Source of the DNA: Acidobacteriota bacterium
Lineage (GTDB): Bacteria > Acidobacteriota > Terriglobia > Bryobacterales > Bryobacteraceae
Direction of reading: 5' to 3'
Assembly: GCA_029776225.1 (NCBI GenBank)
Contig: JAKOTR010000060.1
Span: 1 to 64,000, forward strand
Length of the DNA: 64,000 nucleotides
Shown here: positions 28,264-44,430 of the stretch, piece by piece
How the letters are laid out: each line of letters starts with the position of its first letter
Numbering within the stretch: the first letter of the stretch is position 1
Program-made: the position numbers and the translations under genes
The notes under the pieces: generated by a model
The model's input: the letters and a program-made list of their open reading frames with translations, nothing else
What the model was told of the DNA's origin: nothing
The model's database searches: none

Positions 28264-28343
28264 GGCACCATTGGCGCTTTGCAGTTTTGGAGATTTCTAG
28301 ATGGGAGATCCCGGAGTACCCGGTATTCGTGCCGCGACGATGA

Positions 28344-28386
28344 GTGCGAGCGGCGGGGTGAGAATCGGAGTGCGGGAGCCGCTCGA
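28344..28386 (+). repeat. 43-bp flank repeated (inverted) beside both CRISPR arrays
   Basis: These 43 bases are identical to the reverse complement of 44260-44302. Weaker similarity continues outward to about 28314 (CCCGGAGTACC also shared). In each place the segment lies on the same side of CRISPR repeats read in the ATTTCC-to-GAAGC direction, so it behaves like an array flank or outer leader. In the small array it abuts the repeat directly. Confidence 0.85.
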
Positions 28387-28621
28387 CCGCGGCCCCATTG
28401 AAGCCCGAACCGGGCTCGCCCAGGGCCAGGACCCATACCGGGATTCCGCGGTCAATCGACCGCGGCCCCATTGAAGCTCTGCTTCATGGGTTTCCTCGAT
28501 TTGCAGGGATTCGAATTCCGCGGTCATTCAACTGCGGCCCCATTGGAGCTGGATCACATCGACGGAGTGGGGTTCAATCGGTTGCAGTTCTGCGGTCGCT
28601 TAACCGCGGTGGAAAACCTAC
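28385..28621 (+). CRISPR. Decayed four-repeat CRISPR array
   Basis: Four diverged copies of the main array's repeat, reverse-complemented: a truncated copy at 28385-28404, then 28442-28477, 28514-28549 and 28586-28621. They are separated by spacers of 37, 36 and 36 bp, the same period as the main array. The repeats carry the terminal GAAGC/GGAGC and start ATTCC, i.e. the older register of the main array. The last copy is most decayed and touches the stop codon of the next gene. No cas genes lie near. Likely a non-functional remnant. Confidence 0.88.
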
Positions 28622-41553: not shown

Positions 41554-44125
41554 TCTTCAATGGGGCCGCGGTTCATTGACCGCGGAAATGGCCTTCTTGC
41601 CGTCTGCTGCGCCGGAGATCCGCACCTGCTTCAATGGGGCCGCGGTTCATTGACCGCGGAAATGCATCGATGGCGGCAAAAACCTCCGCTTTCTCCATCC
41701 GGCTTCAATGGGGCCGCGGTTCATTGACCGCGGAAATTCAATTAGCAAGAACTCCAATTACATCCCCGGCTTAGCTTCAATGGGGCCGCGGTTCATTGAC
41801 CGCGGAAATTTCGTGGTCGGTCACGGATCGGGAAGGCCTACGAAGGCTTCAATGGGGCCGCGGTTCATTGACCGCGGAAATGCGGTGGAGGGAATGCAAG
41901 TCGTTCCACCGCTACACGCTTCAATGGGGCCGCGGTTCATTGACCGCGGAAATATGGGGATTGTTTACGATGAAAATGGACTTCTCCAGGCTTCAATGGG
42001 GCCGCGGTTCATTGACCGCGGAAATGAGGTTTTCGAGCGGTGGAAGACCGGATATTTGGCTGGCTTCATGGGGCCGCGGTTCATTGACCGCGGAAATAAA
42101 GAAAAGGGATGGGAAGAGCATTGGAGTCTTAGTGCTTCAATGGGGCCGCGGTTCATTGACCGCGGAAATGGCCGGGCGCTTCATGGACAGCAGCAAGAAG
42201 CCCGCGGCTTCAATGGGGCCGCGGTTCATTGACCGCGGAAATTCAGCGCCAGGCCCGAACGCGGCCTGATCTGAGCCTGCTTCAATGGGGCCGCGGTTCA
42301 TTGACCGCGGAAATACCCGCACGCTGCAGCGCTGGGTAAGCTGGGGGGCGCTTCAATGGGGCCGCGGTTCATTGACCGCGGAAATTTTATCCAGGCGTTT
42401 CTACTCTGCGTAGTGAGTGGGGCTTCAATGGGGCCGCGGTTCATTGACCGCGGAAATGGTAGAGCAACATTATCTGGCAATCAAGTCTTTTATGCTTCAA
42501 TGGGGCCGCGGTTCATTGACCGCGGAAATGCAGTCGTAACGAACGCACCGCGCAGCTTCAGCGCGGCTTCAATGGGGCCGCGGTTCATTGACCGCGGAAA
42601 TACGAATGCGTCCATGTTCTCAGGCTTGCGGCGCCGGCTTCAATGGGGCCGCGGTTCATTGACCGCGGAAATAAATTCACGGCCCCTCATCTCCGTTGGA
42701 ATCTCCGGCAACAATGGGGCCGCGGTTCATTGACCGCGGAAATAAATTTAGCTTTGTCCGTTACGATCAGCATGTCTATCCCTCCAATGGGGCCGCGGTT
42801 CATTGACCGCGGAAATAAATCTGTTATGAGGCAGGCGAATGTCCAGGGCAAGACCATCAATGGGGCCGCGGTTCATTGACCGCGGAAATAAATGAACATT
42901 GCTCCATCCAGATAGCGATGGGGATACATCAATGGGGCCGCGGTTCATTGACCGCGGAAATAAATCACTCAATTCAGCCTCCAGCCGGCGCAACTCAAAC
43001 ACAATGGGGCCGCGGTTCATTGACCGCGGAAATAAATTTCGCTAAGGAGGGACAGTGATGTCCCTCCTTACGTCAATGGGGCCGCGGTTCATTGACCGCG
43101 GAAATAAATGTCGGGAGCCCCGACCGACGGCCGCGGATGAACGCGCAATGGGGCCGCGGTTCATTGACCGCGGAAATAAATCACTCCGACAGAAACTATT
43201 CGCAGGGGCGGAAGATCCCAATGGGGCCGCGGTTCATTGACCGCGGAAATAAATGCCGGGGGTACGTATCGGGAGCGAATCACCTATGCATCAATGGGGC
43301 CGCGGTTCATTGACCGCGGAAATAAATGACCAGCGAAGTCAATCAGGCTCGCCAGAGACAGGTCTCAATGGGGCCGCGGTTCATTGACCGCGGAAATAAA
43401 TGCGGGCGGCCAGGTGGAGGAATGACAATGATATACCAATGGGGCCGCGGTTCATTGACCGCGGAAATAAATCGTGCTGCCCTTGGAGATCGAGGGCCGG
43501 TACAGTGGGCAATGGGGCCGCGGTTCATTGACCGCGGAAATAAATGAACATTGCTCCGTCCGGATAGCGATGGGGATACATCAATGGGGCCGCGGTTCAT
43601 TGACCGCGGAAATAAATACCCCCTGGTCTGCCGGAACAAGCCTACAAGCGGCCAATGGGGCCGCGGTTCATTGACCGCGGAAATAAATGTCGCTGACGCG
43701 AACCACATGGGCATCCAGCCAATCCAATGGGGCCGCGGTTCATTGACCGCGGAAATAAATCTGTCGATAACCGTGATGCCGTTTACCCGCAGAGAACAAT
43801 GGGGCCGCGGTTCATTGACCGCGGAAATAAATACCGAAGTGGCGCTAAGTCTCTTTCGGCGCTTCCATCAATGGGGCCGCGGTTCATTGACCGCGGAAAT
43901 AAATTTTCGGCAGCGCCGAGGAGGGCGCCGGGCAAGCCTGCAATGGGGCCGCGGTTCATTGACCGCGGAAATAAATCGCCCGCCGCCCCCGACTCGCTGT
44001 CCCGAGCTCGCGCCTGCAATGGGGCCGCGGTTCATTGACCGCGGAAATAAATATCCTCGCCGCTGGCGGCAGGACGCCTGAGAGTATCGCAATGGGGCCG
44101 CGGTTCATTGACCGCGGAAATAAAT
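41554..44125 (-). CRISPR. CRISPR array, 36 repeats and 35 spacers, with a 4-bp repeat register shift
   Basis: I count 36 repeats with 35 spacers of 35-40 bp (mostly 36). In plus orientation the shared 32-bp core is CAATGGGG, CCGCGG, TTCATTGA, CCGCGG, AAAT. The first 15 repeats (41554-42601) add GCTT at the left; the last 20 (42712-44125) instead add AAAT at the right. Both versions are 36 bp. Repeat 16 (42637-42676) has both extensions and is 40 bp. Repeat 8 (42063-42097) lacks one base and repeat 1 has a G-to-T change. On the minus strand the older repeat ends ATTGAAGC, like many crRNA 5' handles, so transcription is probably right to left. No cas genes occur in the window. Confidence 0.98.
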
Positions 44126-44259
44126 AGCTCGCCTCCAAAATCCACCTTTTCAAAGACCTGCGGCCAGACTTGCGAGCGGTCCGGTCCTTCCGGAGGGCAC
44201 GCGCCGGCCTTCCTGGCTCCGGTTCCAACAACCTGCCCGAGATCATAACTTTACACCAT
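44126..44259 (-). promoter_or_regulatory. Probable CRISPR leader
   Basis: The 134 bp between the last repeat and the 43-bp shared flank contain no gene. The part nearest the repeats is richest in A+T (minus-strand CTTTGAAAAGGTGGATTTTGG). It is assigned as leader because the other end of the array is decayed, because the flank beyond it is shared with the second array, and because repeats at this end are uniform. No convincing -10/-35 pair was found. Confidence 0.55.
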
Positions 44260-44302
44260 TCGAGCGGCTCCCGCACTCCGATTCTCACCCCGCCGCTCGC
44301 AC
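44260..44302 (-). repeat. 43-bp array flank, inverted copy of 28344-28386
   Basis: Its reverse complement is identical over 43 bases to the flank of the decayed array 16 kb away. Just beyond it, on the minus strand from 44351 to 44332, ATTCCG.GGTC.ATCGACC resembles a CRISPR repeat (about 16 of 20 positions), so older array debris continues past the leader. The remaining stretch to nusB (44352-44430) shows only a short CCCGC/GCGGG hairpin. Confidence 0.8.
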
Positions 44303-44430
44303 CCTCATCGCGTCACAAGTCCGGTACTCCGGGTCGATAGACCACGGAATTCCCGCTCGCGGGACCCTGTCGCGGCTGCCTATGTCGCCGCTTCCACGAA
44401 GGCCGCTGTTAATCACGGCTCCAGCTCCGA

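Follow-up and report, generated by a model that had tools for sequence, protein, structure and literature searches.

A type I-G CRISPR array that appears to record a single register slip in repeat duplication

In the type II-A system of Streptococcus thermophilus the first cut of spacer integration is made at the leader-repeat junction and the second is positioned by distance. According to the available part of that study, inserting one base upstream of position 28 in most cases shifted the second site one base down and thereby kept the repeat end, position 36 was also used as a second site in vivo, and the rulers of types I-E and I-B are described as similar to that of type II-A; a 4-bp insertion at the leader end was not found in this part of the paper (PMC6895254). 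In type V-A the leader-distal site is described as being determined by how large the Cas1-Cas2 complex is, and changes in repeat length reduced full-site integration in vitro, while the accessible text of the paper yielded no stable register change (PMC13034035). For type I-G, no ruler-type insertion test was found in the portion available of a paper on adaptation (PMC10504553). In type I-G, Csb2 is reported to cut on the 3' side of the hairpin, 4 nt from its base, which results in an 8-nt handle, and the structure paper, as far as its text was accessible, describes a 5' handle that contacts no subunit except Cas7.1 and reports TTN as the PAM (PMC9638904).

Repeat anatomy and register switch

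The window analysed here is a stretch of 64,000 nucleotides from the draft genome of an Acidobacteriota bacterium (contig JAKOTR010000060.1, family Bryobacteraceae), and it carries 36 CRISPR repeats that share one 32-bp core at positions 41554-44125. Read in the transcription sense, the older, leader-distal block R1-R15 (41554-42601, minus strand) has the form ATTTCC...CATTGAAGC, and the newer, leader-proximal block R17-R36 (42712-44125, minus strand) consists of repeats of 36 bp each that read ATTTATTTCC...CATTG and lack AAGC. Between the two blocks lies R16 (42637-42676, minus strand), a 40-bp hybrid repeat of the form ATTT-ATTTCC...CATTG-AAGC. On the plus strand this corresponds to a GCTT register in R1-R15, to GCTT followed by the 32-bp core and AAAT in the 40 bp of R16, and to the core followed by AAAT, 36 bp, in R17-R36. 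Reading all 36 repeats confirmed the original prediction of 15 repeats in one register, a 40-bp hybrid and 20 repeats moved by 4 bp. The claim that each of R1-R15 is GCTT plus core with a length of 36 bp holds for the register, with two departures in detail: R1 (41554-41589) begins with TCTT instead of GCTT, one changed terminal base, and R8 is 35 bp long owing to a 1-bp deletion (GCTTCATGG). The presumed direction of transcription was borne out by the leader, which is located on the right of the array, and the further claims that a single event was passed on to all later repeats and that the duplication length of 36 bp was kept are both supported. The probability of the same four extra bases occurring by chance in twenty consecutive units is approximately 1e-48. 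Mean spacer length is the same on either side of the switch, with 36.45 nt for the 20 slipped spacers and 36.27 nt for the 15 old ones (Mann-Whitney p = 0.66).

A survey for further register-switch arrays, which had been suggested alongside the original prediction, covered 62 arrays with 1485 repeats, including the window array and two arrays (L027 and L028) that are not type I-G. The test looked for three or more units in a row whose flanking 3 or 4 bases were identical, and by this test none of the 61 other arrays contained a register switch. Flags raised in L047, L066 and L092 were traced to gaps in the assembly, spacer duplications or short chance agreements. Across 396 genomes of the phylum the slipped-repeat pattern forms an array in this genome only, and its 21 matches genome-wide are entirely accounted for by R16-R36. 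Three single matches to the pattern in other genomes (G604, G377 and G587) were recognised from their context as in-register repeats whose spacer has TTT at its end. IMG/VR gave no match to one fixed-length slipped-repeat pattern. When repeat, leader and flanks were compared by blastn with 30 neighbour loci of the RNase-H-like gene, one of which is from this genome, repeat matches came only from the locus of this genome itself, which stops short of the leader, and the leader had no match in any of the 30; four other loci match 17-36 bases of the left flank. The literature on integration rulers or shifted repeats, covered by titles and the openings of abstracts and with most subscription journals outside the coverage, yielded no such array.

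The original prediction had named as an alternative that two arrays, one in each register, were joined by recombination or by misassembly inside the 32-bp core. A crossover of this kind predicts exactly the observed GCTT, core and AAAT of the 40-bp hybrid, and the genome is available as a draft in 115 contigs. However, a search of this draft assembly turned up no other array with the new register, the arrays on contigs C93 and C32 differ in their loop sequence, and an array in the new register would itself still need a slip. Fusion is thus disfavoured and is regarded as quite improbable.

Leader, cas genes and the integration cuts

The 191 bases to the right of the array form its leader (44126-44316, minus strand), which resembles the sequence between cas4-cas1 and the second array of this genome on contig C93 (92% identity over query 1-195 of 205). 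The gene adjoining that second array encodes a Cas4-Cas1 fusion (L025:15117-16880) with matches to Cas1 (E 3.8e-88) and Cas4 (E 1.3e-16) and Cas1g as the best PADLOC model. Its closest relatives in named genomes belong to Bryobacteraceae or Bryobacterales bins and to other bacteria, and the two loci of relatives that were scanned, L033 and L048, both contain type I-G cas3, cas8g and csb2, with csb1 present in L048 as well. The effector operon of this genome, csb1 (Cas7g)-csb2 (Cas5-6)-cas3-cas8g, is located on contig C14 (L128) and is not adjacent to the array; each of its genes is open with one stop at the end, and a DEAH motif is visible by eye in Cas3. No cas gene was seen by eye among the open reading frames neighbouring the window array. 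The array is filed under type I-G because it has its leader in common with the cas4-cas1 array on C93, and because of the Cas1g match, the type I-G genes of the relatives and the effector operon in the genome. Genome-wide, Cas1 matches are found on contigs C93 and C45, and csb1 and csb2 matches on C14 and C11. Contig C11 holds a second type I-G-like effector operon, a divergent one, with cas3, a csx17-like cas8, csb1 and csb2 (L129:1168-10016). On contig C45 an array with some 60 repeats lies close to Cas1 matches (L027), and another with 78 repeats lies close to a Cas1 match and an open reading frame of 1020 amino acids that looks by eye like Cas9 (L028).

The leader of the C93 array ends directly on the repeat, GAGCT/ATTTCC (the slash marks the junction), without an extra ATTT, whereas the window array reads GAGCT/ATTT-ATTTCC, that is, GAGCT followed by ATTTATTTCC. 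A leader motif, CTCG (44173-44176, minus strand), lies upstream of the junction, 51 bp from the new leader-repeat boundary and 55 bp from the old one. This spacing was compared among 58 leader-bearing arrays from loci that hold a cas4-cas1 relative, a set that includes C93 and several near-duplicates of one species. CTCG, or ATCG where CTCG is absent, starts 51-54 bp before the repeat in all 58, with a distance of 51 bp in 32 arrays, 52 in 20, 53 in five, 54 in one and 55 in none, and this constant distance, which the window array shares, is what a leader-anchored first integration site would show. Five loci with few repeats (L032, L037, L040, L098 and L100) stand outside the set although they show GCT/ATTTCC; a sixth match to this junction, L121, was set aside because no leader precedes the repeat, and L026 likewise is without a leader. 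Since the C93 leader ends with GAGCT and the motif distance of 51 bp fits the range of 51-54, the first cut appears to have stayed where the leader puts it. The best reading of the junction is that the leader-side cut was unmoved, that the first 4 bp of the repeat were duplicated and that, with the distance of 36 bp retained, the far cut was displaced; the origin of ATTT by duplication would be the parsimonious choice over a leader that, in this array alone, had already ended in ATTT.

The original prediction displaced the first cut instead, in that a leader already ending in ATTT would have been entered by 4 bp in one integration, with all later integrations copying the slip. The same hybrid and the same repeats would result, and from the array alone the identical tetranucleotides make the two courses of events indistinguishable. 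However, the paralogous leader on C93 has no ATTT before the first repeat, and the pre-slip distance from motif to repeat would have been 55 bp, the value that none of the 58 arrays shows. A displaced first cut is therefore not borne out, and this version is considered unlikely.

By eye, many leaders of this family in L033-L122 (for example L099, L102 and L107) share GCTCGC about 51 bp before the repeat and, some 33 bp from it, a block resembling TCTTTGAAAA, which may represent a putative site for the integrase or a DNA-bending protein. At 44290-44345 the leader copy opens with GTGACGCGATGA, the last codons of the cas4-cas1 gene on C93, and the likeness seems by eye to extend slightly into the gene. 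A vestigial array (28329-28600, plus strand), 13 kb from the main array, combines a leader fragment (93% identity over query 1-57) with roughly three degenerate repeats whose tail is that of the old register. Both arrays of the window may be copies torn from an array that was adjacent to cas1.

Repeat length is 36 bp in 49 of the 58 arrays, 37 bp in eight, and called as 35 bp in one; with the window array excluded, 43 of 52 distinct consensus repeats measure 36 bp. Hairpins of 18, 19, 20 and 21 nt are combined with 5' arms of 6, 5, 4 and 3 nt, respectively, in 42 of these 43 distinct 36-bp repeats, that of L077 being parsed otherwise. The compensation between hairpin and 5' arm and the repeat lengths therefore point to a length constraint. 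Two arrays with near-identical leaders, L064 (7114-10856) and L065 (8281-9197), have repeats of 36 and 37 bp that are one A apart at the leader end; both repeats end in GAAGC, such that the additional base preserves the far end. The pair represents a natural +1 test of the ruler, and a strict ruler is contradicted because the far end is kept at +1, with seven further arrays also at 37 bp. Read after the fact, the integrase may reach a preferred end when it lies within about 1 bp, whereas an offset of 4 bp would be too great.

Taken together, it is judged probable that the window holds a type I-G array which recorded one register slip, made up of an ATTT duplication, a kept first cut, a constant length of 36 bp and a mis-framed later half. 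It is proposed that R16 was the leader-proximal repeat when its first four bases were tandemly duplicated from ATTT to ATTTATTT, giving a repeat of 40 bp. The first cut by Cas4/1-Cas2 would then have stayed at the leader-fixed GAGCT, and the second, 36 bp away, would have fallen between ATTG and AAGC. With the first cut kept and the second at this distance, R16 is what the first slipped integration must leave behind: new repeats would take the form ATTTATTTCC...CATTG, AAGC would be left in the hybrid, and each of the 20 subsequent acquisitions would copy the new register.

crRNA handle, protospacers and self-targeting

The consensus repeats of 51 of the 58 arrays end exactly in ATTGAAGC. In the window array this tail is present in the older block, with small changes in R1 and R8, and in R16, and is absent from R17-R36, while the predicted hairpin is the same in old and slipped repeats. 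By analogy with the described Csb2 cut, the 8-nt handle would be ATTGAAGC in crRNAs of the old block and only ATTG in those of the slipped block, in which AAGC is lost. It is suggested, with less certainty than the integration steps, that crRNAs of the slipped half are mis-framed by this truncation, with interference that is probably weak or absent. Inspection of the first 8 positions of the slipped spacers showed no fixed PAM-like or AAGC-like motif, the largest base counts being T in 11 of 20 at position 6 and G in 10 of 20 at position 3.

One spacer of the slipped block, s21 (42966-43001, minus strand), matches the dnaA gene of its own genome at 36 of 36 positions (contig C104, 37484-37519) next to a 5' TTC, and the identity of the target locus was confirmed by DnaA, DnaN and GyrB. 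Among the 35 spacers of the array, for which all 25 first-look candidates were scored, it alone matches the genome outside the array. The acquisition of s21 was followed by that of fifteen newer spacers, and the lineage therefore lived on with it. A second slipped spacer, s34 (43905-43940, minus strand), has a site in five relatives with 4-6 mismatches of 36 and a 5' flank of TTG in four and TTA in one; a match in G131 was dropped for its 11 mismatches of 36. Two distinct protospacers, both of slipped spacers, thus start right after TTN (TTC in one, TTG or TTA in the other), which suggests, with some reserve, that slipped spacers still begin directly after the PAM. The spacers s20 (42894-42929, minus strand) and s29 (43546-43581, minus strand) are 34/36 identical with the same ends, as if one protospacer had been sampled twice after the slip. 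The pattern of this pair had no match in IMG/VR, the array as one blastn query gave no match among phages and plasmids, and the spacers of the old block gave no convincing protospacer.

As an in-register control, 57 of 179 listed spacers from six type I-G arrays in five genomes were searched against their own genomes. With 40 of the 45-80 first-look candidates per genome scored, there was no exact match outside the arrays among the 57, and two imperfect self matches, of 94% over 33 and 89% over 35 positions. In one survey, according to its available text, self-targeting spacers made up about 0.4% of the total (PMC6990116), so that a single exact self-target among 35 spacers is not very rare.

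Weak or absent interference by the slipped half would allow the cell to retain a spacer that matches its own dnaA perfectly. The 4-bp duplication would then amount to a frameshift for adaptive immunity, in which acquisition proceeds normally, post-slip memory is silent and autoimmune spacers, even one against dnaA, are no longer lethal; this proposal is a tentative one, and the single dnaA self-target may be taken as a lead, not as proof, that the slipped half is silent. An alternative to this last step, compatible with both preceding ones, is normal function of the slipped half, with the dnaA spacer tolerated owing to an effector that is switched off, inhibited by an anti-CRISPR or inactive in some other way. 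The type I-G handle, in the structure paper as far as available, contacts only Cas7.1 (PMC9638904), so that shortening of the handle may be tolerated, and many genomes carry self-targeting spacers and have other means of escape, as the accessible part of the survey describes (PMC6990116). Against this alternative stand the open effector genes and the DEAH motif seen by eye in Cas3, as well as the strong conservation of the handle among the 58 arrays, neither of which implies activity. This alternative is a serious candidate that falls somewhat short of an even chance.

Comparison with described systems

If the proposed slip and its effect on the handle are correct, an array may lose its immune output while adaptation continues, by way of one small duplication. 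Two matters become directly testable, namely how the position of the second cut is determined in type I-G and whether interference needs an in-register crRNA handle. The system resembles type I-G (formerly I-U) in having cas4-cas1 beside an array with 36-bp repeats and a csb1-csb2-cas3-cas8g operon in the genome, and also in its hairpin repeats with a ATTGAAGC tail and the TTN flanks at two protospacers. It departs from type I-G in that 20 of the 36 repeats of the window array are out of register and without the last 4 nt of the tail, and in that this array, the integrase and the effector are found on separate contigs. Imprecise ('slipped') spacer acquisition likewise involves small integration offsets, there between protospacer and PAM and in single spacers, whereas here the repeat register switches once and then persists.

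As in type V-A, a ruler given by the integrase's own size would fit the window array. The likeness to the type II-A ruler is that the first cut is taken from the leader junction and the second from distance. In type II-A, however, a single-base insertion upstream mostly kept the far end of the repeat, whereas the additional 4 bp at the leader end of this natural array moved the far end by 4 bp and left the total length unchanged. The window array may thus be viewed as a natural counterpart, in type I-G, of the repeat-insertion experiments on integration rulers, with an outcome, total length kept and far end moved, that departs from type II-A and from types I-E and I-B as these are described in the available text (PMC6895254).
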